Shown: piece after piece, positions 6,850-36,373 of the stretch
Layout: the number at the start of each line of letters is the position of its first letter
Position numbering within the stretch: the first letter of the stretch is position 1
Assembly (NCBI GenBank): GCA_947598485.1
Contig: CANQFJ010000015.1
Location: 1 to 40,503 of the forward strand
Reading direction: 5' to 3'
Length of the DNA stretch: 40,503 bases
Source of the DNA: an uncultured Bacilli bacterium
Lineage (GTDB): Bacteria; Bacillota_I; Bacilli_A; RF39; UBA660
Program-made: the position numbers and the translations under genes
The notes under the pieces: model-generated
What the model saw: only the letters and a program-made list of their open reading frames with translations
The model's database searches: none
What the model was told of the DNA's origin: nothing

Positions 6850-8286
6850 TTAATTAAGTAAATATTTGTCATAATATTTAGATTTTTTAGATATTTCATC
6901 AGATAACTTTTTAGGACCTAGCTGTTCTACTAAAGTTTCTTTACCCGAAAATAAATTAGTACCAAGCCCCAATCTATTACCCTCAATATCAACGCCTAAA
7001 GCTGCTAAGGTTGTAGGAAACATATCCATGGTTGTAAATAATCTATTTTTACTATATTCATCACTTAATCCAGTATTAATGAATGCATTATAAATCGTCC
7101 TGTTCTGAGGATCTGTTAAGTAATCTTTAACATTAGTTTGCATTGTTAAATGATCCCCCGATATTATAACAACGGTATTTTCATAAAATTCTTGTTCTTT
7201 AAGCCAAATTAAAAAGTCATTAAGCATAAAATCCGCGCATTTTAAAGAATTAGCATATTTATATTCGTAATCTTTTTTACACATTTCATCAGTGTAGCCA
7301 TCTACAGCATGAGTATCTATTGTAATCATTGTAAAATTAAAGGGTTCATAGTCTTCTTCCATAGTAAGAAGTAATAACTGCTCTTTAGCAATTCGATATA
7401 ATTTAGAATCTTCAAAGCCCCAATTCAATTTATAATCTGGTGCTATTCTAGCCTCTTTCTTAGCCCATTTATAATCATATATTTCATACTCACCATGATT
7501 TTCAAGTAATGACTTTGTGCCTGCGAATTTAGAGTTTGAACCCAATAAATAATAGTTATGATAACCATTTTCTTTTAAAATATCACCAAGCATAGTAGCA
7601 CCTGGTAAAAAGATATCACTTCCTAAGCCATATTTATTTCTTTTCATAGTAGATTTTAATGGTATCCCACCCATTTGGGCTACTGTACCTGCTACGGTCC
7701 ATGTTGTAAGTGGAACTCTTATTGCTCCTCCCATTCCTTCCGTATTGCTAAAATTAATATTATCATTTGCGATTTTAGTTAAATTAGGTATTACATTTAC
7801 TTCTTTATCATTTAAAGTAAAGGAATTAAAACTTGACTCCATAGATTCCATATATATGTAAATTAAATTTTTTTTCTTTTCCGGAAATGTTAGCTTAACA
7901 TCACTGGGCTTAACATAATAATCTTCGAATATCTTGGAAGTTGATACAGCATTTATACACCACTTAAAAAAACCCATAGAAACAAGCGAATATATACTCA
8001 AAAACAAAGTAATAGCCAAAGTATATATCCCCTTTTTTATCTTATTATTTTTTAAATAAATCGGTATTAATAAAACGATTACTAATACTAAAACAATAGG
8101 AATACAATAAACTACCGCATCTAATATAACGGCAAGGCTAGAACCCTTAGGCGAATACATCGTATCTATTACTTGTTCAAACTGTGGATTACCAAATCTT
8201 AAATTTAAGAAAAGACTGATAGCAAATAAAATACAAGATAATAAAATTAAAATAGTATATATAACTTTCTTTACTACTAACTTCAT
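6850..8286 (-). CDS. LTA synthase family / sulfatase-fold phosphoglycerol transferase
   Basis: KKNLIYIYMESMESS, VVIISGDHLTMQ, N-terminal TM helices. Confidence 0.88.
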   Translation of the reverse strand: MKLVVKKVIYTILILLSCILFAISLFLNLRFGNPQFEQVIDTMYSPKGSSLAVILDAVVYCIPIVLVLVIVLLIPIYLKNNKIKKGIYTLAITLFLSIYSLVSMGFFKWCINAVSTSKIFEDYYVKPSDVKLTFPEKKKNLIYIYMESMESSFNSFTLNDKEVNVIPNLTKIANDNINFSNTEGMGGAIRVPLTTWTVAGTVAQMGGIPLKSTMKRNKYGLGSDIFLPGATMLGDILKENGYHNYYLLGSNSKFAGTKSLLENHGEYEIYDYKWAKKEARIAPDYKLNWGFEDSKLYRIAKEQLLLLTMEEDYEPFNFTMITIDTHAVDGYTDEMCKKDYEYKYANSLKCADFMLNDFLIWLKEQEFYENTVVIISGDHLTMQTNVKDYLTDPQNRTIYNAFINTGLSDEYSKNRLFTTMDMFPTTLAALGVDIEGNRLGLGTNLFSGKETLVEQLGPKKLSDEISKKSKYYDKYLLN

Positions 8287-8298
8287 AACTTCCCCTAA

Positions 8299-9735
8299 TT
8301 ACATAAATACATCATAATAGAAATCGGAATATTTTGGTAGTTCCTTTATAATATAATCATAACCATATTTTTCCGTAATAGTTTTTTCTTCCGAAAATAA
8401 ATTAGTACCAAGTCCCAAACGATTATTTTCTATTTTAAATCCTAAAGAATAAAGAATAGTAGGATACATATCAAAAGGTGATATTTCTCTATTTTTACTA
8501 TTTACATTTTTAATATCGGTATTTATAAAAACATTATAAACTTCTCTATTATCGCTCTTTAAATGCTCTTTAATATCAGTTTGCATAGAAATATGATCTC
8601 CCGTGATTACTATTATTGTATCATCATAAAAATCTTGATCTTGGACCCAATTTATAAAATCATTAATTAAACTATCTTCACACAAAATACTACTTCCATA
8701 TTGATAATTTAAAACATCTTCACATTCTTTATCTAAATATCCATCAATAGGATGAGTATCTATCGTAGATATAACTAAACTAAATGGTTCCTCATCTTGT
8801 GAAATTTCTTCAAGTTTATCTTTAGCAAAACTAAATAATTTACGATCCTCTAAACCCCAAAATTCATAATAGTCCTCAGGTATTAGACCTTTTTCTTTAG
8901 CATAATTATAGTCTTCAACGGCAAATGAACCATGATTTTTAAAAAGCGTATACTCTGCGCCAAAGGCTGAATCAGATCCTGTTAAATGATAATTATTATA
9001 TCCAGCATCCTCGAGAATATCACCCAGCATAATAGCATTATTTAAAAATTTATCTTTATAACCATAATCGGTTAAATTAAGTCTTACACGAAGAGGAAGC
9101 CCTGACATTTGGGCCGTAGTTCCCGCGGCAGTCCAATTAGCAAGAGGATAGGCTTTAAAGCCACCAATACCATTATCACTACTAAAATTTATATTGTTTT
9201 CTGCTAAAGAAGTAAGATATGGTATTAAATTAACGTCTTGATCATTAAAAGTAGTTTGTTCATAACTAGCTTCTAAAGACTCCACTAAAATGTATATTAA
9301 GTTTTTCTTTTGTTCAGGATATTCTATTTTAACATCTTTAGGATTTACATAATTATCTTTTATAAAGTCACTTTTCGTTAATTCATTATAAATATAAGTA
9401 TGAATTCCGACAGTATTTACACTATAAATAAATAATATTAAAGACAAAACTATTGTATAAAATCCTTTAAAATTTATATTTTTATTTTTTATTTTTAAGT
9501 TTAAATAAAGAGGAAATAACGTTACAAAGCCTATCTTTAAAACTAGTTTAAGGCAAAAAAATAAGCCATTTAAAAACACATCTATACTAGTTCCTTTTGG
9601 TAATATAATGGTATATATTATCTGGGGCATTTGGGCTCCACCAAAAGCTTCTACAGAATATCTAGTTAATGAAAAAACAATTACATTTACAAGAATAATT
9701 ATGGTATAAAATACTTTCTTTTTTTTAGAAATCAT
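8299..9735 (-). CDS. LTA synthase family / sulfatase-fold phosphoglycerol transferase, tandem paralogue
   Basis: KKNLIYILVESLEASY, IIVITGDHISMQ; same length (478 aa) and architecture as neighbour. Confidence 0.88.
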   Translation of the reverse strand: MISKKKKVFYTIIILVNVIVFSLTRYSVEAFGGAQMPQIIYTIILPKGTSIDVFLNGLFFCLKLVLKIGFVTLFPLYLNLKIKNKNINFKGFYTIVLSLILFIYSVNTVGIHTYIYNELTKSDFIKDNYVNPKDVKIEYPEQKKNLIYILVESLEASYEQTTFNDQDVNLIPYLTSLAENNINFSSDNGIGGFKAYPLANWTAAGTTAQMSGLPLRVRLNLTDYGYKDKFLNNAIMLGDILEDAGYNNYHLTGSDSAFGAEYTLFKNHGSFAVEDYNYAKEKGLIPEDYYEFWGLEDRKLFSFAKDKLEEISQDEEPFSLVISTIDTHPIDGYLDKECEDVLNYQYGSSILCEDSLINDFINWVQDQDFYDDTIIVITGDHISMQTDIKEHLKSDNREVYNVFINTDIKNVNSKNREISPFDMYPTILYSLGFKIENNRLGLGTNLFSEEKTITEKYGYDYIIKELPKYSDFYYDVFM

Positions 9736-13711: not shown

Positions 13712-14101
13712 TTACTTTTGACTATTAGTTACAGCAGTTGAGCATGTACCTTTTCCTGGGTTAGTAATACATTTAACACAGATATCGTAATCAGGTTTAA
13801 CATCACTAAATCCATTAACAATGCTAAATAATGCTGATACGATTGTTGGAATAAAGAAGATAAATACAGCCGTAATAAACTTTTTAATTAGTGAATTAAC
13901 AGCAGTTTTGATTTCTTTATCATCATCTGCGATAACAGCCTTTCCTAAAGCTACAACACCAATAACAATTAGTATTGCAGGAATAACGATTTTTAGTACC
14001 ATTACAATATACCCAATAAATTGAAATATTACTGATGTGTTATAACAAAAACCTTTATTAGTTCCTATACTCATAATCCAAACACTCCTCTTTCTAATCA
14101 T
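13712..14101 (-). CDS. Small VirB2/TrbC-like two-TM membrane protein of the pilus/secretion cluster
   Basis: Two hydrophobic segments separated by charged DDDKEIKTAVNSLIKKF; last gene of block 2; family call by architecture only. Confidence 0.5.
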   Translation of the reverse strand: MIRKRSVWIMSIGTNKGFCYNTSVIFQFIGYIVMVLKIVIPAILIVIGVVALGKAVIADDDKEIKTAVNSLIKKFITAVFIFFIPTIVSALFSIVNGFSDVKPDYDICVKCITNPGKGTCSTAVTNSQK

Positions 14102-14145: not shown

Positions 14146-15147
14146 TTAACGAAAAATTCCAAAGCCACCATTATCATCGTCATCATTAAAACGCGTAAAG
14201 CCTAAAGCAAGAAGAAAATCCGAAATTTCCTTGATATTATCTTGCTTATCATCAATACATGGAATATTATAAAAGACTTTACTTCCCGATTCTTTTTCAA
14301 AATCGCTTACATCATTTGAAGTTAAAATACTTCTATTTAATACAATCTTTTTGCCTTCTAGCTTCTCAAATATACGATTGTCATCTCTTATTAATCTATT
14401 AAGCTGAATTATGCCTGGTTCAATTAAATAAATAATATCATGACAATAAGAGGCAACCTCATCATTCTCAACATCAATTAGTATTACTTCAGCATCACTA
14501 TTTCTTTTTAAATAATTATCTAATTCATATTGTTTTATTGAAGAGCATTCTTGATCATTAAAAAACTGAAAATCTCTTTTTTCTATTTCAATAGCTTTTA
14601 CTTTATATAACCTTTCAAGATGCTTTTTTAAAATATAAGTAAGAGTAGTCGATCCAGCGTGATCCGTAACATTTCTTACTCCTAATATTCTTTGGCCAAT
14701 AAATCCTTCTTTATTACCCATATTGTTATTATTTCGGTTATTTTGTCCATTTGGCTCATAACTTGCATTTAATTGATGAAACTTTGCAACATCTTTATAG
14801 GTATTTGGATTATCCATTAAGAAAGTTATTGCATCAACGTTTTTCGTAAAATTATATATACCCATTGATACTAGTTGAGATAAATAAACAGCAGAATTAA
14901 CAACGGGAGAGTCATCAAGAAGTAAAATTACTTTACTCATATCAAGAGAAACTGATAATTTTTGAATAGTATTTATTTCTTCATAATTTTCTAAAGCTGT
15001 AATATCTAATATCATTTTATTAAAGAAAAAATTTTTAAATTGAACGGCTAAATCTTCAACTGTAAAAACGCCATTAATATTTTTTATAACATCAATGTTT
15101 AAATTAGATAATAATGTTTGATATTTGTTTGATACTATAACGTTCAT
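14146..15147 (-). CDS. TadZ/CpaE-like protein with degenerate P-loop
   Basis: Receiver-like N-terminus (ILLLDDSPVVNSA), then RILGVRNVTDHAGSTTLTYILKKHLERLYKVKAIEIEKRDF resembling MinD/ParA fold with altered Walker A; context beside pilin-like genes. Confidence 0.65.
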   Translation of the reverse strand: MNVIVSNKYQTLLSNLNIDVIKNINGVFTVEDLAVQFKNFFFNKMILDITALENYEEINTIQKLSVSLDMSKVILLLDDSPVVNSAVYLSQLVSMGIYNFTKNVDAITFLMDNPNTYKDVAKFHQLNASYEPNGQNNRNNNNMGNKEGFIGQRILGVRNVTDHAGSTTLTYILKKHLERLYKVKAIEIEKRDFQFFNDQECSSIKQYELDNYLKRNSDAEVILIDVENDEVASYCHDIIYLIEPGIIQLNRLIRDDNRIFEKLEGKKIVLNRSILTSNDVSDFEKESGSKVFYNIPCIDDKQDNIKEISDFLLALGFTRFNDDDDNGGFGIFR

Positions 15148-15157
15148 AATGTCCTTT

Positions 15158-15652
15158 CTATGAATATAATGGTTTTGTTTCTCCTACGGCTTTAAAATTA
15201 AAAAGCTCATTAACTATAGGTATATCTAAACTATAAAATACAACTATTTGATAGTAATATTTAGTAACAGCCCCATTGTCGCTAGCATTTGGAATTTTAA
15301 CTATGCAAAATGATGCTTTATCATCTCTATATACTTTAGAACCATTTCTTTGATAGCCTACAACTTCAATATGACTACTGTCAAACTCAGGGCATTTTCC
15401 TACTTGACGATAAGAATGTTCGGTAAGAGAATCAACTATTTTCCTTAAAGTTTCATCTTCTCTTAAGCCACTTCCCTCAACAATTTCCGCAGTCATGTCA
15501 AAACCACCAGCTTCTTCAATTATTGAAACTACCTGGTCTTTAACGGCAAAGGCATTAGAATGATTAATTGTGAAAGCCATAATTGCTGTAAAAATCAAAA
15601 TCAAAGCTATTACTACTATAAAGAGTTGTGTTCCTCCAATACTTTCCTTCAT
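15158..15652 (-). CDS. Pilin-like / TadE-like pseudopilin
   Basis: MKESIGGTQLFIVVIALILIFTAIMAF N-terminal hydrophobic helix plus extracellular domain. Confidence 0.6.
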   Translation of the reverse strand: MKESIGGTQLFIVVIALILIFTAIMAFTINHSNAFAVKDQVVSIIEEAGGFDMTAEIVEGSGLREDETLRKIVDSLTEHSYRQVGKCPEFDSSHIEVVGYQRNGSKVYRDDKASFCIVKIPNASDNGAVTKYYYQIVVFYSLDIPIVNELFNFKAVGETKPLYS

Positions 15653-15656
15653 CTTT

Positions 15657-15893
15657 TTATCCTTTATAACTGCATTTTATAGTTTGCTCTACTCCATTTT
15701 TGTCTTTATAAACGCAATCAACCATTCCACTGTCATCTGGAGAAGCAGAGCATTTGGCCTTTTCACAAGCTGTTTGTGAAACAAAATTAAGTTTAATAAT
15801 AGGCCATACTGTAAAGTAAAAAAAAGCTACTAAAATAGCTATACAAACTGCTACAACTAAACCGCTTGATAAATCCGAAGTAGCTTCTTTCAT
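15657..15893 (-). CDS. Small Cys-containing pilin-like protein
   Basis: MKEATSDLSSGLVVAVCIAILVAFFYFTV...; tail with Cys pairs. Confidence 0.6.
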   Translation of the reverse strand: MKEATSDLSSGLVVAVCIAILVAFFYFTVWPIIKLNFVSQTACEKAKCSASPDDSGMVDCVYKDKNGVEQTIKCSYKG

Positions 15894-15904
15894 ACATCAC
15901 CTTA

Positions 15905-16162
15905 TTATTGTTCTTCTTCGCAATCACACTCAATTGTATCATCACTAACAGTAATAGTTCCGTCATCATTTTCCACATTATAATGGCATTCTCTTTTTCC
16001 ATCAACACAAGCAGTACATCCAACTGAAGATGAACAATAAGTTCTTGCTCTTAAGCTTGCCCTTAAACTTGGTAATAAAAATGCTGTGAATATAGCTAAT
16101 ACTGCAGCAATTGCTACAACAGCGATAACAGTTGTACTTAATTCACCTGTTGCTTCTTTCAT
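15905..16162 (-). CDS. Small Cys-rich pilin-like (major pilin candidate) protein
   Basis: MKEATGELSTTVIAVVAIAAVLAIFTAFLLPSLRASLRARTYCSSSVGCTAC...; first gene of block 2, strong RBS AGGAGGAG. Confidence 0.62.
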   Translation of the reverse strand: MKEATGELSTTVIAVVAIAAVLAIFTAFLLPSLRASLRARTYCSSSVGCTACVDGKRECHYNVENDDGTITVSDDTIECDCEEEQ

Positions 16163-19173: not shown

Positions 19174-19422
19174 AATAATAGTACCTTAAAAAAGGATGCT
19201 GAAGATTTATTCAAAAGATTAGGCCTTAACATGAGTAGTGCAATTAATGTTTTTCTAACCCAAAGTGTTAGAGAGCAAGCTATTCCTTTTGAAATTCATG
19301 AAAATAAGCCTAACAAAAAACTATTAAAAGCTTTAAAAGAAGCTGAAAAAATGAAAAAGAACCCTGAAAAATACAAATCTTATAATAACATTGAAGAATT
19401 AATGAAAGATTTGAATAAATAA
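19174..19422 (+). pseudogene. 5'-truncated RelB/DinJ-family antitoxin
   Basis: In-frame STLKKDAEDLFKRLGLNMSSAINVFLTQSVREQAIPFEIHE extends upstream of listed ATG to an in-frame stop; N-terminal strand missing. Confidence 0.75.
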
Positions 19423-20266: not shown

Positions 20267-21079
20267 TTATAAATCCATCATTTGTAGAACAGATAAAATT
20301 AATAAGATCATAACACCAATACCCGTACAGACAAGCATTTTCATTGTCATGCCTTCCATTTTATCAAGTCTATTTTTATATCTAGTTTCTCTTGCTTTTT
20401 GTTGTAAGTTAGAAATTGATTTTGAGAATGCTAATAATTGTTCTTGTTTACGATCTTGACGACCTATACTAAGACGATATAATAACCGCATCATTCGCAT
20501 GCTATCACGTACAGGATATGTTTTAGCAAATTCCATATAAGGCGTTATAGAATCATCACCTGAATTAATGGCATTGATTAAATCTCTAAGTCCGTCTTTA
20601 AATATTTCCGGTGCATCATTTAATGATTTACCTAAAGCAACAGGCACCGTGTAATGTTGAACTAAAATTTCAATGCTTTTAAGGTAATGCGGTAACATTG
20701 CATCTATTTTACTAATATGCTTTTTATAATAACTCTTAATATCAATATAAGAAATTTTAAAAACTCCATATCCACCGGCGATAATAATAACAAGTGTCAC
20801 AGCAGACATGTTACTAATTAACATAAAGGATAAAATAATTATCGTAATTAAGCCATTTTTTATTCTTTTGTTAAAAAGAAGATCTGGATTTACACTAACG
20901 CCATATTTGGCTTTAACATAAAAGTCCCAATCGCTTTCTTTTAATTTTTTAAATAATGCTTCATTATCATTAATTAATTTTGTAAAGCTTATTTGCCCTG
21001 TTGTAAACATAATTACAAAAATAATAATGGTAATAATGGCAATTTCAATATACATACTATTCCACCCCCACATCAGCAT
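20267..21079 (-). CDS. TadC-like inner-membrane platform protein (T2SS F family)
   Basis: Architecture: TM pair, cytoplasmic helical region, C-terminal TM (GMTMKMLVCTGIGVMILLILSVL); paired with TadB-like gene next to CpaF. Confidence 0.72.
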   Translation of the reverse strand: MLMWGWNSMYIEIAIITIIIFVIMFTTGQISFTKLINDNEALFKKLKESDWDFYVKAKYGVSVNPDLLFNKRIKNGLITIIILSFMLISNMSAVTLVIIIAGGYGVFKISYIDIKSYYKKHISKIDAMLPHYLKSIEILVQHYTVPVALGKSLNDAPEIFKDGLRDLINAINSGDDSITPYMEFAKTYPVRDSMRMMRLLYRLSIGRQDRKQEQLLAFSKSISNLQQKARETRYKNRLDKMEGMTMKMLVCTGIGVMILLILSVLQMMDL

Positions 21080-21953
21080 TATAATACTTTGTTCCTTTAA
21101 TTAAGAACAAAGAATTTATAATAATAACGGCATGAAGTAGCATTTGAACATACCACATATTCAGCATTTCCAAATAGTTTTCAACTTGAAGCATGTATTG
21201 TAAAGCCAATATTAAGAAAAATAAAGCAATACCAAACTTAACAAATTTTCCATAGAAGTTTTTTCTATCCATTTGGTCTCGATAAACGCCTTCGACTAAA
21301 GCATCGATATCCATCGACATATTTTCTAATGATTCTCCAGCATCTCTTGCACCTTCTTTAGTTATTTGATAGAAAAGTTGATGCATATTTTTTACCATAT
21401 AATAAGGATATTTAGCGTTGAAATACTCTATAGACTGATCAATAGTACCATTTTGATATGATAAATCAATCATTTTTTTAATATCACTTAAAACAGGTTC
21501 TTCGATAATACCAGAGTCTCTAACACCCTCGAGAGATTTAATAAAACTTTGAGTAGTATTAAATTCCATTATGACGTTAGTGCAATATGTTTGTATTTGC
21601 TCAAAGATATATTCTGAATATATTCTTTGGCACCGCAAATAAGCCAAATAAGGAATAAACATAACAGCAACAACGGCATACACAACGGCCCAAATGATAC
21701 TGTAAAAATATAAATATGCAATTCCTCCGGCGAAAGCAGCAAACATAGTTATTTGACCTACGTATTGCCTAGTCGTATATTCTTGTCCCAATTCTTTAGC
21801 TTTTTCTCTAACTGTTTTAAATGAATATGGAGCATACTTTTCGTAAATGCCGTTAACTCGCTTTACAAAAGTGGTAATCCCTACCCTTTCTTCTGGCGAA
21901 GTACGGTAAATAATAATTACAGCACCAATTATTAAAAGTACAATTAATTCCAT
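21057..21953 (-). CDS. TadB-like inner-membrane platform protein (T2SS F family)
   Basis: TM segments, SLEGVRDSGIIEEPVLSDIKKMIDLSYQNGTIDQSIEYF; overlaps tadC-like gene. Confidence 0.72.
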   Translation of the reverse strand: MELIVLLIIGAVIIIYRTSPEERVGITTFVKRVNGIYEKYAPYSFKTVREKAKELGQEYTTRQYVGQITMFAAFAGGIAYLYFYSIIWAVVYAVVAVMFIPYLAYLRCQRIYSEYIFEQIQTYCTNVIMEFNTTQSFIKSLEGVRDSGIIEEPVLSDIKKMIDLSYQNGTIDQSIEYFNAKYPYYMVKNMHQLFYQITKEGARDAGESLENMSMDIDALVEGVYRDQMDRKNFYGKFVKFGIALFFLILALQYMLQVENYLEMLNMWYVQMLLHAVIIINSLFLIKGTKYYNADVGVE

Positions 21954-21983: not shown

Positions 21984-23147
21984 TTATAATGATTCAATTA
22001 TTTGATTATTATTTTGTAGTTCTGCTCCAATGCTTTTAGGCACAGGATTATCGTCAAATGAATCTTCTTCATTTGCATTAGAAGATTCTGAATCTTTAAC
22101 AAATAAATCATTTTTAAGCTCTTTACCTTGAGCTGCAAAATATTCTCTTAAATGTCTAGTGGGATTATTAAAAGCAAATGTTCCATCTAGATTTTTTTTA
22201 TAAATTACATTTGTTTTAGCTACGTTATTATCATCAACATAAAATTCACAAACTTCAACAATTTCTCTTTGAAATCTTTGTAATTCTGCACTCATAAAAC
22301 CTTTAACATGAATACCTATTTGAACATATCTATGAATAGAATTTAAAAATTGTTCAACATCTTGACTGCCTTCCATCAACGCATACATACGCATAGGGAT
22401 ATTTTTAGCACTATCAGAGTGAATAGTTGAAATAATGTTGTGACCTGAAGATACAGAGTTACGTGCTGCCGTAACAGCTTCAGCAGAACGAATTTCTGAT
22501 AGTAAAATCCATTTAGGGTTTTGTCTCATGCAGCTTACTAAAACATCAGTATATGATGCAATGTTATTAGTTTTAACCGCTACTATATCACGATTAGGAA
22601 AAATTTTATCCAAATGAAGTTCAAGAGTATCTTCAATTGATATAATTTTTTCATTCTCTAGTGTATTTGAAGCTAAGTATTTTACAAGTTCGGTTTTACC
22701 TGAACCAGTTTCTCCACTTACCATAACATTGCAATGAGCGTGAATACAATCGATTAAAAAGTCATGTAAATTTTCTGTTACATAGTTTTCATCAATTAGC
22801 TTACTTTTATTTAACCTTATCTTCGCAGGAGTTTTTCTTATAACACAAGCTATGCCATTAGTAGCAATAGATTCATGTATAAAGTTAAGACGAAGCTCAG
22901 CTCCTTCAGCATCTAAGAACGGATGAGCCATATTAAATGTTGTACCCATGACATTAGAACATTGAAAAGCTAATTTTTCCATCAATGCATTATTAATGTC
23001 AGGTCTTTCAACACTATAAATACCTTTGTCTAATGATTTTAACCATATTTGACCTCCGTTTGAATAAGAAACGTCGGTAATTTGATCATCCATTAAAAAT
23101 TCGTTGATAGGGCCAAAATCAAGCTGAGAAAATATAGCTTCCTTCAA
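21984..23147 (-). CDS. CpaF/TadA-family secretion ATPase
   Basis: MVSGETGSGKTELVKYLA Walker A, ISIEDTLELHL, ILLSEIRSAEAVTAARNSVSSGHNIISTIHSDSA. Confidence 0.93.
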   Translation of the reverse strand: MKEAIFSQLDFGPINEFLMDDQITDVSYSNGGQIWLKSLDKGIYSVERPDINNALMEKLAFQCSNVMGTTFNMAHPFLDAEGAELRLNFIHESIATNGIACVIRKTPAKIRLNKSKLIDENYVTENLHDFLIDCIHAHCNVMVSGETGSGKTELVKYLASNTLENEKIISIEDTLELHLDKIFPNRDIVAVKTNNIASYTDVLVSCMRQNPKWILLSEIRSAEAVTAARNSVSSGHNIISTIHSDSAKNIPMRMYALMEGSQDVEQFLNSIHRYVQIGIHVKGFMSAELQRFQREIVEVCEFYVDDNNVAKTNVIYKKNLDGTFAFNNPTRHLREYFAAQGKELKNDLFVKDSESSNANEEDSFDDNPVPKSIGAELQNNNQIIESL

Positions 23148-23155
23148 GATATCAC

Positions 23156-23923
23156 CTACTGTCCAGGGTCTGTAGACCTAGCTTCAATTAAATTTTTAAA
23201 ATATTCATAAGTTTTTAACTCGCCTTCTTTATCAGAATATGCCTTATTTCTTGGCACTGGCACTAATGTAACGCCTGGCAACATTACCGCCCTTGATAAT
23301 AAATTACCAAGTTTATCCTCTACAGAGAATACTAATACAGCAGGTGTTCTCGGAGGATTTGATTCAAATACATCTCGGCCTGATGAGTCACGAACAGCTA
23401 GAACGGTAATACCTTCAACAAATTTACCGTATACTAGTTTATTTGCCTCATCAGTAGCTTTTACAAATATATCAATCTTATCACCAGGATATATGGAATT
23501 TCCGAAAGTAGTTTCATTATTAACTGACATTTCAACTGCCATATGTCCATCTTCAATATTATCTAAGAAAGTATTTGGTAGTGAGCTCTTTTCTGTTACT
23601 TGAGCTCGATAAAATAATCCTCCCTGTGGTATTGATGTTCCAATTGTAACATACTTACCAATAAGTTCATTAGGGCTTTGAATTATATCAACAGTTGATA
23701 AGAATTTACTATTAATTTCTACATATCCTATAATATCTGAAGTAATTTCACTAGTAGCAGAAAGTGCTTGTTTAGCATAAGGAACCTTAATAGGATTAAT
23801 TGCATTTTTAACCCTATAAGTATAAAATCCCCATAAGACAACTACTCCTGCTAAAACCCCAAGAATTGTTACCGTATTCTTATTGCTAACAAATTTTTTT
23901 AAAGCATTAATTATATTTCCCAA
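23156..23923 (-). CDS. CpaB/RcpC-like SAF-domain pilus assembly protein
   Basis: Single N-terminal TM, VPYAKQAL...IGKYVTIGTSIPQGGLFY...IYPGDKIDIFV. Confidence 0.78.
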   Translation of the reverse strand: MGNIINALKKFVSNKNTVTILGVLAGVVVLWGFYTYRVKNAINPIKVPYAKQALSATSEITSDIIGYVEINSKFLSTVDIIQSPNELIGKYVTIGTSIPQGGLFYRAQVTEKSSLPNTFLDNIEDGHMAVEMSVNNETTFGNSIYPGDKIDIFVKATDEANKLVYGKFVEGITVLAVRDSSGRDVFESNPPRTPAVLVFSVEDKLGNLLSRAVMLPGVTLVPVPRNKAYSDKEGELKTYEYFKNLIEARSTDPGQ

Positions 23924-23944: not shown

Positions 23945-25648
23945 TTATATAGCTGACCAAAAACGTGCTCTATAAGGTTTTTTATTTTCATCTTTTGGTG
24001 CTGAATTAAAGCCAGCTACCACATCATCGTGGCAGTCATTGTCTTGGAAATGCCACCATTCAGATTTAAGACCAGTAAGCCCAGCTCCTGTCATTAAACT
24101 ATTAAGTTCTTTAGATAAGGCATTATCTTTTGCGGCTGCTGGACCTAAAACATGCATATTAGTAGGCATTGCCGCACCTTCAAATGTTAAATCAGCAGCG
24201 CAAGCGGTATTATGCTTAGATATACCTTTAGCTAAAAAATATCCTAAGCCAAAATCTTTGGCAGCATCTGCTAACTCTTTTTCATGTTGGGTTCCTTTTT
24301 TCTCAACATAATTATTTACATAGTCATCATACATTTCACTCATTTTTTCTGAAACAGTATAAGGACGATAAGTATCATATATTACAATTGTACGATTTGT
24401 ACCTTTGATAGCTTTTGCTAATTTTTGCGCAAATGAATATGTAGCTAAAGGTTTATGCTCATCAGTATAAAGTTTTTTACCCGTTAGCTTTTCACCGCTC
24501 ATTGTTTGAATAGGTGTCATTTCATCATCCATAGCATATATTGCAGCAGTTTTATTAGTAATATTAAACTTGTAATTTGTTACCCCTACTTTCGGGAAAT
24601 ATTCTTCTAGGTTAACAGCAACATAACTACTATAAACATACCCACATTTTTGATTATCATATTCTACTAAAAGCCACAATGGATCTTTTCTACTAGTGCC
24701 TACAATTTTAAAGGCTGTTCCTTCCTTAATTGTTCCAAGAAGATTTTGTTTTGACCCTCCACCATTGTCTCTTACATTTAAAGGAACCATACCATAGCCA
24801 TTTAAGCCGCTTATATCAATTTCTGTATATTTATCTGTACACACTGTAGTAAATTCTGGATCAGGATCATCTTTATCGCCTTGTTCCTCAAAAGGTTTGG
24901 CCAAATACAAATATAACTGGCCTATAAATGTTCCCAATTCATCATCAGTTGCATCAGCGTAAGAAATAGAAACTAAATCGGCAATAGCCTCTTTTTGATC
25001 ATCAGGAAAATCTTTCATTTTATCATACAATTCTTCAGCAAGCTTTTCAATTTCACCTGTAAATTCAGTTTCAACTGCTTCAGCAATAGCCTCTAGTTCT
25101 TTACGACTCTTTTCGTTTAAATCAATACCTAAATCTTTTAATTCTCTTTCAGCTTCGGTTGTACCACTTCCAGGTATAATAGTAACTGTACTATCTCCAT
25201 AACTTGGACTAGGATTTACGCCTGTTTCTTCACTTTCCGTATTTGATTGGCTACTTTCCAATATTGCATCTATTTTATTAACAATATCAAATGTTGTAGT
25301 ATCTCCTGCTATATTAAAGGTACTAGATTTACTAGAAACTTTTACACCAACTTTTGGAGGAGCTTCATAAACTTCAGTAAAATCAACGGTATAAGTTGTA
25401 GAAAATGAAGCTTCCTCAGCAAATCTTCTTAAAAATGATTCATAAAATTTTTCTTTATTAATTTTTATCTCGCCATATAATCGATAATATGACCAATCTA
25501 GGGCATCTTGCATAGATGCCTCTGTTATAGATTTTACTAAATAATAATCTTGAGTATTAGTAGTAGTAAAGCTTTGAACTAATAAAAGAACTACTATAAT
25601 AAATATACCAAGAATAACTAACCAATAGCCCCATAGAGCTTCTTTCAT
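23945..25648 (-). CDS. Pilin-like N-terminus fused to SH3b and M15 (VanX/VanY-like) D,D-peptidase
   Basis: MKEALWGYWLVILGIFIIVVLLLVQSF N-terminus; SH3b-like GYGMVPLNVRDN...LGTIKEGTAFKIVG..GYVYSSYV; active-site SKHNTACAADLTF and KSEWWHFQD. Confidence 0.82.
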   Translation of the reverse strand: MKEALWGYWLVILGIFIIVVLLLVQSFTTTNTQDYYLVKSITEASMQDALDWSYYRLYGEIKINKEKFYESFLRRFAEEASFSTTYTVDFTEVYEAPPKVGVKVSSKSSTFNIAGDTTTFDIVNKIDAILESSQSNTESEETGVNPSPSYGDSTVTIIPGSGTTEAERELKDLGIDLNEKSRKELEAIAEAVETEFTGEIEKLAEELYDKMKDFPDDQKEAIADLVSISYADATDDELGTFIGQLYLYLAKPFEEQGDKDDPDPEFTTVCTDKYTEIDISGLNGYGMVPLNVRDNGGGSKQNLLGTIKEGTAFKIVGTSRKDPLWLLVEYDNQKCGYVYSSYVAVNLEEYFPKVGVTNYKFNITNKTAAIYAMDDEMTPIQTMSGEKLTGKKLYTDEHKPLATYSFAQKLAKAIKGTNRTIVIYDTYRPYTVSEKMSEMYDDYVNNYVEKKGTQHEKELADAAKDFGLGYFLAKGISKHNTACAADLTFEGAAMPTNMHVLGPAAAKDNALSKELNSLMTGAGLTGLKSEWWHFQDNDCHDDVVAGFNSAPKDENKKPYRARFWSAI

Positions 25649-25663
25649 TTAATTCTTCACCTC

Positions 25664-28600
25664 CTACTTCCAAGATGGTCCTATATCAGGAACTCCATCA
25701 CCATTTATATCTAAAGTATCATATTTATAAATTGTCCAATAATCGTTTGTAATTATAGGATCTTTACCATGATTTAATAAACCAGTATATGTTTCAAAAT
25801 TACTTGAAGCATTATTCTTTGCTTCAGTTCTATGTGGAGCATCAAATTGATTTGGGAACTTTTCCTCTAGTTCATCAATGAAATTACTATAGCAGAAGAC
25901 ATTAGACATAATACATTTTCCACCTTGTCCAGATGTACCTTCTTGCCATATATAACCTTTACCTTTGCATGTTTTTTCGTCTGTTATATCGTCAAGATCA
26001 TAGTTATAACATGTTAATGACTTATTACTATAAGCTCCCTGTGATTGTTGCTCGTTATTATACTCTTTAATCCAAGTTACCATATCAGGAGTCATAACAA
26101 CATGTAAAACATAATCAGGAATATCCGCAATATTAACATTTTCATTATCTTTTCCTCCTGATCTTGCTTCAATTTCAGCTATCGTATTTGATGCCTTTTC
26201 AGCAACTAATGAATTAGAAGGATTATTACTATCCCAGTTATATCCAAGGCGTCTATCGTTAGGATTCATGTTTTGCGGAGTTACTGTTCTAAATTCAAAT
26301 TGTACTTTACCATCATTTGTCCTGTTATTTTTTAGAACATATATACACTTTCCTACACAAACGGCTCGACAGTTTGGACAGCAATTTTCATTTACAGTAG
26401 ATTTTGATAAAGCTTCTGCCCTACTACCTGCCTTTTCGCATTTATCCGCATCGTAAGATGTACTGCTACATACATAATATGCTCCTGCTTCTTTTACACA
26501 GTAGCTTTCACCTGTATCAGACGGAGGGCATATATCTTTTTTGCATTCTTCCCAGTTAGCGTGTTTGCCTCCAATATCACACTCATCTATAGTGCGAGTA
26601 TTTCCATCTTTATCTACACAACTACTTTGAGATACGGCATATGTACACGCATATTCATTAATAGCTATTTCTTTGTCGGTATCAGAAGCATCAGAGCCTA
26701 CACCAGAAGTAATTGGATATGAAGCTGAAGAACCTTGTAAATTTCTTGCGTATGTAGATAAGCTATTAGATTTTGAACTATAAATTCTTCCTAATTCTCC
26801 GCTATTATAAAAGGTTCCTACATTTTGAATGTTTAAAATATAAATATATGTTCCTTGTGGAGTATCTGCAGAAACTGGAACACCTGGAACCTGACTATAA
26901 TTTTTGTTTAGTGTTGGATCTTCAAGATACTGTATTTTTATTTCTCCCGTTCCATGCTCAGTATAATAAACTAATCTTGTATCATAATCACCAGAGCCTA
27001 CAGCAGCCTTATGAATATATTTTACTTTTGTAACGGGATGGCTTTCTGAGCCACAGTCAAATTGGGCAGTACTTTCATTATATTTGCACATAAAGAAGTC
27101 ATAATTATCATAAGTTGAATCATCTAATGTGTGAAGTTCACCTGATTTACAAGAATAATCATCATTTATTTCGCCCGTACAGTATGTATTAACATATTGT
27201 TCCTCTCCTGAAAATAAAGATTCAATCTTTCCTTCTGAACCTAAAGAAGTACATTTTACAGAGCTATCTTCGGCACAATCTTCTGCTTTAACTTCTTCAT
27301 TTTTTGCAAACATGATATCACAATTTCCATCACCACAGGATGTGTTTTGAACGTCTCCAATCCATTTATGTCTCGATGGATTAGTTGGATCAGGCTCATC
27401 ATATGAATATTTAATTTCTGGATCATATTTATAAACCATATTCCAGAAGGCACTATCTTGATAGCCTTCGGATAAGGTTTCATAATTTTTATCGCCAACA
27501 CAAGAGTTATATTGGTCAATTGTTTTTTTTAACTCTTCAACCAAATCTATAACGTCTTTTTGAGCCGCTTTTAAATAAGTTTTATAATCCTTTATTTTAG
27601 AGTTGAAATGGTCCTCTGCTTCAGTTTTCTTACATACTTCTTGATTATCACTTAATTCACAGCTAATATTATTATCACGTGATGCAGGTGCAACAGTAAA
27701 GTAGCTTATTGATCCCTGTCCTTGAACGGTTCCGCTTTCAACAGAATCGCTTTCGGCAGAAACATTAAGGTTTGTTTTAAATAATAAGCTTCCATCGCTA
27801 GAATATCCCCTTATGATGTAAGATAAACTTATTTCATCATCATTTCCTGAATTATCTAATCTATAGTTAAATCTAGTACCACTTCTTGTAATTGTTAACG
27901 ATCCACTGGTAAAACTAGTTGTATAATGAGTTCCTTCATCTTTGAAATTACATGAAACACTGCCCTCAGTTTGATCTCCCATGATTCCATATCTTAACAA
28001 TAGTTCATAATCATCTCTATCATCATTATTATATTTTTGAATAAGACTTTCAAGAGATTGGCTTGTGCTACCAATATCGCCATTTAAATTTTTATAAAAT
28101 TGAATAACATTTTTACTTATTACATCATATTGTATAACTTTCCATGCATCCTCAGTTGATGTGTAAGAACCTTTAGTACATCCTGATGCAGTAAGGTTAA
28201 CAGTACAACTTGCTTTATTACAATATAGTACATTACTTGCTTGAAGATCAGTATCAAAATCAAGATTTGCTAATACATTAAATACATTAAATTTATTAAT
28301 AGCTTCAATTATTTTGTTTTCCGTTTCTTCTACTTTTTCATTAAATAGTGCATCATCAAATCTTGTTGAATAACAGTCTTGTTGCCCTTTCATAGAAAGA
28401 GTTATTTTAAAATATCTTCCTTCTTCAACTGTTTGTTTATATGGCACTCTTATTGAATATTGTTCCCTACATAAAATTGAACAATACGGATTATCGGCAA
28501 CTGCATTAGCGTTTTTTTCATCTATTAATTTGTATGAATTATTTGCTGCATCGGCTTGCGCTCCAAGCAGGCATTTTTTTATATTAAACCCTTCACCTTC

Positions 28601-30016
28601 AATATAGCCTTCAAGAAATTTGTATTCTACTAGCCCATCTTTATCAGGGGTTAAACCATCTTTACAAATTTGTGGCAAAGTTGAATCAGGATAGCATATG
28701 TCACCCTCACATACTATAGGTGAGCAGGTATTTGAACACATTTTTGTGCAATTTTTCATAGGAATTTCAATATTTCCACTGTTTTCTCTTTGTGTCTTAG
28801 AAGCAACTAAAAATCTTTGATAATTGCCACTTTTTTTGCCACTATGCATTAACTCAGCACCAATTAAAGCAGAAGGATCTCTGTATACGTAGCTTAACAT
28901 AGCTTTAACATCTTCACACTCGTCGCATTCTTCTTCCTCAGAAGCAGATTCAATTATAATAGTTCCTTTTATTTCAATAGCAATATATAAAGTTAAATTT
29001 TTTTTGCCATTTGAATCGGTAGTTACAGCATCACTAAATGTTTCAAAAACATTAGTGCCATAAGTAATAGGCGTTGAATAGTCATCAAAATTATTACTTG
29101 ATTCTGTAGATATTCCAACTATAGTCGAAGTATAATTGCCAAAATTTGAATTATCAAATGAATTAAAAATAAAACTTCCCTCACTGGCGTCAAAATTAGT
29201 TAATTTTAGTGTAACTATCTTTTTTTGAATTACGTTCTTAGTAATTTGGTCAGGTTCATCAGATGGATTTTCTGGTGTAGATTGATTTAGATAAAATGGA
29301 TCACCTGTGCCTTCTTCCGTAGCTCCTAAAACGTCAACAACTGATGTTTCAACATGAGCAAGCATATCATCCGTATACGATTCTTCTGCCTTTAAACCTA
29401 TACGGTATAATATAGCAGCATCATGAATAACTTTTTCAGCATCAGCTTTTGCACTATCAGACAAGTTACTATGTGGAATTATATGATTCGGATCCGCATA
29501 AACGCCATCTTTTGCAAAGGATTCCGCCAATGCACTAAGAGCATTCATTGCAATATCTCTTTTAGATTTATATGCCCTATTAGTATGACCATCCCAAAAG
29601 ATTCTTAAAGCAAACCCTTTAGCATACGAAAATAAGTCGCCAGTAGTTTGAAATTCACTATCATCAGATGGCATGGTTGTAATAATTTTGGCAAGACCAT
29701 ACTCTTCATTAGCTTTACTTGTATCCTCCATGAAAACAGAATTTACAATAAAGTTATCACCATCTCCATGTGCATATCCTGGATCCATACAATAAATATC
29801 ATAGCTTTGGTGGTCTATCGTATATTCTGCAGTATAAATACTACTTGAATATGACCACCTTTCACCATTGTCAATAAAATATAAATTAACACTTGCGTTC
29901 TTTTTTCCCGTACGCTTAAATACTTCGTCTTTTGCAAAGGCATTAGCGTCAATGATTCCTATGCATAAGGTTAATAATGTTAAAGAAAGTAAAAGTATTT
30001 TTTTTAATATTTTCAT
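25664..30016 (-). CDS. Giant (1450 aa) secreted Cys-rich surface protein, uncharacterised
   Basis: Signal peptide MKILKKILLLSLTLLTLCIGIIDANA; many CxxC/CxC motifs; no C-terminal TM or LPXTG; C-term DINGDGVPDIGPSWK. Confidence 0.85.
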   Translation of the reverse strand: MKILKKILLLSLTLLTLCIGIIDANAFAKDEVFKRTGKKNASVNLYFIDNGERWSYSSSIYTAEYTIDHQSYDIYCMDPGYAHGDGDNFIVNSVFMEDTSKANEEYGLAKIITTMPSDDSEFQTTGDLFSYAKGFALRIFWDGHTNRAYKSKRDIAMNALSALAESFAKDGVYADPNHIIPHSNLSDSAKADAEKVIHDAAILYRIGLKAEESYTDDMLAHVETSVVDVLGATEEGTGDPFYLNQSTPENPSDEPDQITKNVIQKKIVTLKLTNFDASEGSFIFNSFDNSNFGNYTSTIVGISTESSNNFDDYSTPITYGTNVFETFSDAVTTDSNGKKNLTLYIAIEIKGTIIIESASEEEECDECEDVKAMLSYVYRDPSALIGAELMHSGKKSGNYQRFLVASKTQRENSGNIEIPMKNCTKMCSNTCSPIVCEGDICYPDSTLPQICKDGLTPDKDGLVEYKFLEGYIEGEGFNIKKCLLGAQADAANNSYKLIDEKNANAVADNPYCSILCREQYSIRVPYKQTVEEGRYFKITLSMKGQQDCYSTRFDDALFNEKVEETENKIIEAINKFNVFNVLANLDFDTDLQASNVLYCNKASCTVNLTASGCTKGSYTSTEDAWKVIQYDVISKNVIQFYKNLNGDIGSTSQSLESLIQKYNNDDRDDYELLLRYGIMGDQTEGSVSCNFKDEGTHYTTSFTSGSLTITRSGTRFNYRLDNSGNDDEISLSYIIRGYSSDGSLLFKTNLNVSAESDSVESGTVQGQGSISYFTVAPASRDNNISCELSDNQEVCKKTEAEDHFNSKIKDYKTYLKAAQKDVIDLVEELKKTIDQYNSCVGDKNYETLSEGYQDSAFWNMVYKYDPEIKYSYDEPDPTNPSRHKWIGDVQNTSCGDGNCDIMFAKNEEVKAEDCAEDSSVKCTSLGSEGKIESLFSGEEQYVNTYCTGEINDDYSCKSGELHTLDDSTYDNYDFFMCKYNESTAQFDCGSESHPVTKVKYIHKAAVGSGDYDTRLVYYTEHGTGEIKIQYLEDPTLNKNYSQVPGVPVSADTPQGTYIYILNIQNVGTFYNSGELGRIYSSKSNSLSTYARNLQGSSASYPITSGVGSDASDTDKEIAINEYACTYAVSQSSCVDKDGNTRTIDECDIGGKHANWEECKKDICPPSDTGESYCVKEAGAYYVCSSTSYDADKCEKAGSRAEALSKSTVNENCCPNCRAVCVGKCIYVLKNNRTNDGKVQFEFRTVTPQNMNPNDRRLGYNWDSNNPSNSLVAEKASNTIAEIEARSGGKDNENVNIADIPDYVLHVVMTPDMVTWIKEYNNEQQSQGAYSNKSLTCYNYDLDDITDEKTCKGKGYIWQEGTSGQGGKCIMSNVFCYSNFIDELEEKFPNQFDAPHRTEAKNNASSNFETYTGLLNHGKDPIITNDYWTIYKYDTLDINGDGVPDIGPSWK

Positions 30017-30747
30017 AGTTTCCTCTTTTTTCTAATTATAATAATAGTTCCTATTACTAAAATAATTATTATTGCCATGCTCGCTATAATCACAAGTTTA
30101 TATTTACCAATAAATTCAAGTAGTTTATCGAAGAAACTCTTTTGTTCGCTTTTTTTCTTTTCTTCTTGCTTTTTTATTTCGTTTTCTACTTTCTCAATAA
30201 ATTCTCCGTAGGTAAAATCTTGGCTAAAAGTCACATATTCCTGACAAAGATAATAATCCGGGATTTCACTGCATATTGCATAATGTGAATATTCATTTAC
30301 TCTCGGAGTTGTAATGTGAAAAGTTCTCACTTTTGTTCCCTCACATGATGTTTTATCTGAAGCATAAGCAGTAATAGTAAAATTATTTATTTGACTTACA
30401 TCATCCCATCTTATTTTAAGAATGCCATCTTCACCAACTTCAGAAAAATAATATTTTTGACTCTTTTTAGTCACGCTATCTTTAACGTCGATATAAAAAT
30501 TTTCACTAAGGTTTAAAACATTTACATTGATAAAAAGATCATAGATAGGATCGCACTCTTCGTCACCATCACAAGAATTTGGTTCTTGTTCGATAATTTC
30601 TTTATCAGACTCATATTTTACATTTATATTTTTAGCTTCCTTATTAAGGGCTGCTTGTTCTGCATAACTACATTTAGCATTAACGGAAGAAACTCCCAAA
30701 AATAAGGTAAGCATTGCTACTGTGCAAGATAATATTTTCTTATTCAT
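30013..30747 (-). CDS. Secreted type-I membrane protein, translationally coupled to the 1450-aa gene
   Basis: Signal peptide, C-terminal TM IIASMAIIIILVIGTIIIIRKKRKL, 4-nt overlap with next gene. Confidence 0.8.
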   Translation of the reverse strand: MNKKILSCTVAMLTLFLGVSSVNAKCSYAEQAALNKEAKNINVKYESDKEIIEQEPNSCDGDEECDPIYDLFINVNVLNLSENFYIDVKDSVTKKSQKYYFSEVGEDGILKIRWDDVSQINNFTITAYASDKTSCEGTKVRTFHITTPRVNEYSHYAICSEIPDYYLCQEYVTFSQDFTYGEFIEKVENEIKKQEEKKKSEQKSFFDKLLEFIGKYKLVIIASMAIIIILVIGTIIIIRKKRKL

Positions 30748-36072: not shown

Positions 36073-36099
36073 AAAAGAGGAATTAATCCTCCTATGACT
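36073..36099 (-). terminator. Terminator after DinJ-like gene
   Basis: minus strand AGGAGGATTAATTCCTCTTTTTTTG. Confidence 0.75.
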
Positions 36100-36373
36100 T
36101 TAAGCCCTTTAACATTTCGTACATATTATTATAACTTTTAGCTTTTACCTTTCCACTTAATATATTTTCTCCCTCTTGAATAGCCTCTAATAATTCTCTA
36201 CTTGGTTTAGGATTAACTACTTCGAAAGGTACACCATCTTTGTTAATTAATTGTTTAATTGCCATATTTATATATGTACTCATATCTAAGCCTAATTTAC
36301 TTAAAATAGCAGTTGCTAGCTCTTTGTCATTTCTGTCAATTTGAACACTTATTGTAGTTGTTAGACTTTCCAT
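36092..36373 (-). CDS. RelB/DinJ-family antitoxin, no adjacent toxin
   Basis: ISVQIDRNDKELATAILSKLGLDMSTYINMAIKQLINKDGVPFEV. Confidence 0.88.
   Translation of the reverse strand: MESLTTTISVQIDRNDKELATAILSKLGLDMSTYINMAIKQLINKDGVPFEVVNPKPSRELLEAIQEGENILSGKVKAKSYNNMYEMLKGLKS

Follow-up and report, generated by a model that had tools for sequence, protein, structure and literature searches.

The window, by which we mean the whole 40,503-nucleotide stretch of DNA that was analysed, contains a single open reading frame that fills positions 23945..25648 on the minus strand, a strand left unnamed in an earlier sequence-only reading of this DNA. From an ATG start it encodes 567 residues, whose N-terminus, MKEALWGYWLVILGIFIIVVLLLVQSF, matches the one quoted in that reading. 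The protein is composed as follows:

23945..25648, minus strand: modular pilin-like protein, DUF5411 - linker - SH3b - M15 peptidase (open reading frame, Pfam, fusion in other species)
25250..25648, minus strand: DUF5411 (PF17424), residues 1-133, with MKEA box, transmembrane helix, long helix and three-stranded sheet; pilin-like carrier (Pfam, AlphaFold, N-terminal box)
24845..25249, minus strand: linker, residues 134-268, differing in length and composition between species (alignment of seven fusions)
24620..24781, minus strand: SH3b (SH3_3), residues 290-343, probable wall-binding module (Pfam, model, Foldseek)
24035..24490, minus strand: M15 metallopeptidase, VanX-like, residues 387-538 (Pfam, profile, fold)

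As profile matches, all three domain assignments far exceed chance. DUF5411 is found with an E-value of 7e-53 and 178.6 bits against a curated cut-off of 30, covering model positions 1-133 of 134, while SH3_3 (E 1.4e-6) and Peptidase_M15 (E 4.8e-11) both score above their curated cut-offs. The SH3b domain that had been proposed to follow the N-terminal part is thus confirmed, as are the proposed M15 active-site motifs SKHNTACAAD (477-486) and EWWH (530-533) within the Peptidase_M15 match. Linkers among the seven aligned fusions vary in length and are frequently rich in Pro/Thr or Asn/Gly. For the SH3b domain of lysostaphin, binding to peptidoglycan has been described (PMC6461655).

The gene is part of a pilus locus. 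Read along the minus strand, P244 (from 30747) is followed by a 1450-residue surface protein, the fusion gene, CpaB/RcpC, CpaF, a TadB-like and a TadC-like gene (to 20267). Since the genes from P244 to TadC overlap or lie 8-30 bases apart, the arrangement fits a single operon. A promoter-like site lies just 5' of P244 and a terminator-like site beyond TadC, both being consensus matches and as such weak evidence. Past the TadC-like gene, the same strand carries two short pilins, a 164-residue minor pilin and a CpaE-like gene:

30013..30747, minus strand: P244, which opens the operon and encodes a membrane protein with a signal peptide (synteny in relatives)
25664..30016, minus strand: large Cys-rich surface protein of 1450 residues, directly upstream of the fusion gene
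23156..23923, minus strand: CpaB/RcpC (Pfam RcpC 1.6e-7; NCBIfam CpaB 1.5e-9, under its curated cut-off)
21984..23147, minus strand: CpaF/TadA-type ATPase (Pfam T2SSE 2e-28)
21057..21953, minus strand: TadB-like platform protein, by position; no Pfam match, kept directly after CpaF in relatives
20267..21079, minus strand: TadC-like platform protein, by position; no Pfam match, kept directly after TadB in relatives
15905..16162, minus strand: short pilin pil85, MKEATGEL... (kept after TadC in relatives, N-terminal box in 33/39)
15657..15893, minus strand: short pilin pil78 (relatives, N-terminal box)
15158..15652, minus strand: minor pilin pil164, whose homologues in L040, L042, L045 and G064 bear SH3b-M15
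14146..15147, minus strand: CpaE/TadZ-like protein, by position and conserved in relatives; no Pfam or NCBIfam support

Among the parts of the Tad system, CpaF and RcpC are identified by Pfam, and TadB, TadC and CpaE are assigned by gene order and conservation in relatives. The order of the whole locus recurs in many genomes. Across the genus, the gene for the 1450-residue Cys-rich secreted protein adjoins that for DUF5411; the protein gave zero Pfam matches at E<=1, and its DIYCMDPGY motif we take to recall thioester-domain adhesins. After the CpaE-like gene lies a 129-residue membrane protein (13712-14101, minus strand) that matches T4SS_pilin (PF18895) just below the cut-off and frequently occurs in two copies in relatives.

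The host, a small gut bacterium, belongs to a family that is an uncultured group of Bacilli, with Candidatus Onthocola among its named relatives. Its genome of 1.26 Mb encodes three filament ATPases. One, on contig C1, adjoins a canonical TadE-type Tad locus; another, on C25, has a much stronger T2SSE match and is perhaps PilB/ComGA-like; the third, on C15, is that of the divergent locus in the window. A prepilin peptidase gene is located away from the locus, on contig C7, and may serve other systems. Five matches to penicillin-binding transpeptidases and a D-Ala-D-Ala ligase indicate peptidoglycan synthesis, which makes the host's own wall a possible target of a peptidase and rules out a wall-less host. 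An origin from a phage or plasmid was likewise rejected, there being no PHROG or phage-record match and DUF5411 occurring on no plasmid; the M15 part has one weak relative on a virus contig. Elsewhere in the window, tandem 478-residue sulfatase-type membrane proteins (6850-8286 and 8299-9735, minus strand) are possibly lipoteichoic-acid synthases, and two short proteins (19231-19422, plus strand; 36092-36373, minus strand) resemble RelB/DinJ-type antitoxins.

What kind of protein is DUF5411? The family was found in 162 of the 196 sampled genomes of the bacterial family, in most cases as a protein of some 135 residues that stands alone beside cpaB and cpaF. That residues 1-133 belong to a named domain family had escaped the sequence-only reading. 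CpaB/RcpC lies directly downstream in 73/82 distinct copies with enough downstream sequence, several of the exceptions being additional DUF5411 copies; in 28/33, CpaF is no more than 3 kb away. Linkage to cpaF in homologous loci, on which the sequence-only reading had made its proposal depend, is therefore the rule.

The same neighbourhood speaks for a pilus component rather than a generic anchor, as DUF5411 is conserved on its own before cpaB, shares an N-terminal box with the pilins of the locus, and is joined to a module also borne by pil164. This box, M[KR][ED][AS], is present in 45/84 DUF5411 proteins, in 32/39 members of the pil164 family and in 33/39 short pilins. It occurs in 0/846 other open reading frames with an N-terminal transmembrane segment from the same loci, a rough control in which many are mechanical open reading frames. 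An AlphaFold model of DUF5411 (pLDDT 77.9, pTM 0.63) shows a 47-residue helix (2-48) and three antiparallel strands (86-94, 99-113 and 116-129), a predicted lollipop-like outline with the general shape of a type 4 pilin. A weak hhalign match (E 0.0018, probability 15%) pairs DUF5411 with the minor pilin pil164 in register, beginning at residue 1.

Direct comparison with solved pilins gave no match. A structural check of the N-terminal region, suggested along with the first proposal, was run on the DUF5411 model and returned nothing below E 0.15 against the PDB, with no solved pilin matched; searching PDB sequences with a DUF5411 profile also found none. The proposed TadE-like start was not borne out: DUF5411 has no Pfam match to TadE (PF07811), hhalign against the TadE set gives E 0.19, and the genome's own Pfam TadE match lies in the separate Tad locus. 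The Glu at +5 of the canonical class III signal is absent from the DUF5411 N-terminus. In a distant branch of the family (L064-L067; L064:8211-8639) the proteins start MSKGMTLVGIIILG or similar, which is near the classical K-G-x-T-L pilin start but has Gly at the place of Glu5. We therefore use 'pilin-like' for DUF5411 on the basis of the N-terminal box, the modelled outline and the locus, rather than of proven homology.

These results leave room for a different role, in which DUF5411 would be a stationary component of the membrane assembly, like TadG or PilN/PilO, instead of a fibre subunit, with the enzyme clearing the wall at the base of the pilus. Its position directly before CpaB and not among the short pilins would suit such a part, as would the missing fold match to pilins and the missing Glu at +5. 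We nevertheless regard this role as unlikely, given that the box is common to DUF5411 and the short pilins, that SH3b-M15 is also borne by the pilin-like pil164, whose gene lies in the pilin block, and that a varied and often absent cargo is typical of tip subunits and not of core machinery.

Turning to the enzyme, the M15 motifs read Y427-R-P, S477-K-H479-N-T-A482-C-A-A-D486 and E530-W-W-H533, with H479, D486 and H533 as zinc ligands, E530 as catalytic residue and R428, so that the H-x6-D...ExxH pattern is present. With H-x6-D...H as its ligand pattern, the domain agrees with zinc peptidases of the LAS group (PMC4087270). The SH3b-M15 model is of high confidence (pLDDT 94.9, pTM 0.92). Its top Foldseek match in the PDB is VanX (1r44, E 1.9e-6, probability 1.00), followed by VanXYc and then by clostridial endolysin/SH3 entries, and a profile search separately gives VanX 1r44 (E 4.7e-12) with the motifs aligned. 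The nearest NCBIfam models for the M15 part are D-Ala-D-Ala dipeptidases, with scores far under their cut-offs. Judged by motifs and profiles, the domain is VanX-type and complete in its catalytic residues.

Conservation bears on whether it still works as an enzyme. A check of the metal ligands, which had been recommended at the outset, shows that the zinc ligands, the catalytic Glu and the Arg are invariant in 40 homologues, as are all of R, P, S, H, A, D, E, W, W and H of the motifs. The replacement of Gly by Ala in SxHxxGxAxD, pointed out in the sequence-only reading, is real, but the position is not fixed in the family and holds either residue: among close fusions it is Gly in L116 (HNTGCAVD) and Ala in L117 (HNTACAVD). 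Because this position varies while the catalytic residues are invariant, the Ala is no mark of decay. One could take the Ala in the first motif as a hint that the domain is a non-catalytic, peptidoglycan-binding adhesin; the invariance of ligands, Glu and Arg makes this quite improbable.

VanX-type enzymes normally cleave D-Ala-D-Ala, not cross-links. By analogy, the domain is expected to strip D-Ala from D-Ala-D-Ala ends, and such removal alone loosens the wall little.

A view across species shows that the enzyme is one of several things attached to DUF5411. Longer members of the family carry C-terminal extensions that differ by species: SH3b-M15, C39, dockerin or InlB-type repeat, and in some cases an extra part with no known domain. 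SH3b-M15 is found on DUF5411 in 11 species of 8 genera (this genome, G009/L034, G020, G289, G121, G130, G402, G198, G391, G307 and G336/L055), in G289 in two tandem copies. Type I dockerin repeats occur in G225/L131 (L131:1091-2080) and an InlB-type repeat in L046. A C39-type cysteine peptidase, a second and unrelated peptidase, sits in the same place in G008/L005 (L005:1501-2634) and G180/L119 (L119:1029-2207). The dockerin might tie the pilus to cohesin-bearing surfaces.

The M15 enzyme itself is missing in most relatives. The closest sister (G007/L035, 85% identity over DUF5411) has the same operon and no cargo, and G402 holds a 137-residue DUF5411 copy beside a nearly identical one that bears M15. 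About 7 to 10 changes are needed to explain the distribution of M15 on the DUF5411 tree, which is poorly resolved. Two things follow from its absence in most relatives, the closest sister included: the machine works without the enzyme, and an obligate role in extrusion is argued against, which makes an outward target possible. As far as these sequences tell, the C-terminus of DUF5411 is a cargo slot whose contents are exchanged between species, and the family, of hitherto unknown function, is probably a carrier of exchangeable tips.

SH3b-M15 is also found on other carriers. In L040, L042, L045 and G064 it is fused to a pil164-type minor pilin, with DUF5411 standing alone, and in G072 it forms the N-terminal part of a 1539-residue protein of the 1450-residue family, in a second DUF5411 locus. 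Eleven further SH3b-M15 proteins of the bacterial family are unfused; the surroundings examined, some of which are short, showed none of the motor genes of this pilus locus. In an enzyme tree that omitted the two long-branched fusions of G336 and G064, the pilin-borne M15 domains (11 on DUF5411, 3 on the minor pilin) form one clade with support 100/97, which excludes the unfused domains and that of G072. In a larger tree the G336 domain was placed elsewhere, weakly. On whether the DUF5411-borne domains form a clade of their own, apart from the pil164-borne ones, the tree decides neither way (p-AU 0.288). That a single enzyme lineage is attached to two pilins from the same locus appears to us the strongest sign that the enzyme works with the pilus.

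This bears on another reading, namely an ordinary membrane-anchored wall enzyme with no more than a signal anchor in its N-terminal helix and an incidental place in the operon. Enzymes of related kind do exist outside the locus: the genome encodes two M15 proteins of the VanY type at other places, and relatives have unfused, secreted SH3b-M15 proteins. Yet DUF5411 alone is conserved beside cpaB/cpaF, and fusions to DUF5411 or to another pilin of the locus are seen in 8 genera, so we consider a plain anchor very improbable.

Our preferred reading, to which we assign a probability of roughly 0.7, places the protein in a divergent type 4 filament of the Tad type, as a modular minor pilin or a pilin-like subunit of the tip, and has it display a peptidoglycan-trimming enzyme. 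The N-terminal helix of DUF5411 would sit in the membrane with the remainder outside, and the subunit would be taken up by the CpaF/TadB/TadC motor. Linker, SH3b and M15 would then face outward and move with the fibre, probably at its tip, where, with SH3b as a tether to peptidoglycan, the VanX-like zinc peptidase could trim D-Ala-terminated stem peptides at the point where pilus meets wall. A broader proposal, for the bacterial family as a whole, is of a Tad-type pilus with an exchangeable effector slot, in which a pilin-riding peptidase lineage moved between two pilins of one locus, giving a wall-cutting tip for the cell's own exit or for another cell's wall; we offer it tentatively, at odds just short of even.

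Whose wall would be trimmed? The original suggestion that the enzyme opens the thick wall for passage of the fibre is possible but unproven, since sister species build the machine without it and a VanX-type enzyme normally cuts D-Ala-D-Ala, not cross-links. The enzyme may instead be aimed outward, at the walls of neighbouring bacteria or at loose muropeptides and wall fragments, for attack, scavenging or wall adhesion. This is the preferred reading with another target, so that their probabilities overlap, and we see it as a possibility below even odds. The swapping of the cargo for C39, dockerin or InlB-type repeats is as expected of a tip that meets varied targets, most relatives keep the locus without the enzyme, and Tad tips are known to serve in predation (PMC12075869); on the other side, no immunity gene or toxin domain was seen, and a VanX-type peptidase by itself would be a poor weapon.

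On how type 4 filaments pass through the thick monoderm wall, a recent lead is LytF of Streptococcus sanguinis, a wall hydrolase that aids pilus extrusion across this wall (PMC13192262). The study's authors raise the possibility of a hydrolase that associates with the pilus. In their system the hydrolase is secreted on its own, as a CHAP enzyme serving the competence pilus; physical fusion to a pilin-like subunit, as found here, would be a direct case of a pilus-associated hydrolase. Nature also provides controls, in a sister species that has the same operon without the enzyme and in one species where copies with and without it lie in tandem, and DUF5411 gains a testable role as exchangeable tip carrier. 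In the literature searched, we met no description of a peptidoglycan peptidase joined to a pilin; one may still exist.

Several known systems resemble parts of this arrangement. A language-model analysis predicted a DUF5411 operon to be secretion-related (PMC9523054); as described there, the operon unites CpaF, DUF5411, a PilC/GspF-like protein and a further one with a region resembling internalin B, as here, and that description assigns DUF5411 no role and reports neither cargo domains nor pilin character. VanX and VanXYc (PDB 1r44, 4mut) share the M15 fold, the H-x6-D...ExxH pattern and the YRP arginine, but are stand-alone resistance enzymes; the domain described here has SH3b and a pilin-like anchor as fusion partners and a predicted outward orientation. 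The Kil Tad tips of Myxococcus and TadG-type minor pilins (PMC12075869) have Tad-type motor genes and variable C-terminal domains in common with our locus, which differs in its Bacilli host, its enzymatic cargo and in that no sequence relation to TadE was found. The closest parallel in kind are the modular pilins, such as PilB and PilC of Streptococcus sanguinis, in which a functional module is attached C-terminally to a pilin module and a tip location has been proposed (PMC8179133). Both consist of a carrier and an exchangeable effector that is probably exposed at the tip. The modular pilins use an N-methyl-type module (IPR012902) and present mostly adhesive domains, besides predicted S74 and M26 peptidases; here a DUF5411 carrier encoded in a Tad-type locus bears SH3b and an M15 peptidase of the peptidoglycan type. 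The modular-pilin kind is known, and what appears to be new here is the combination of a DUF5411 carrier with a peptidoglycan peptidase as its cargo.
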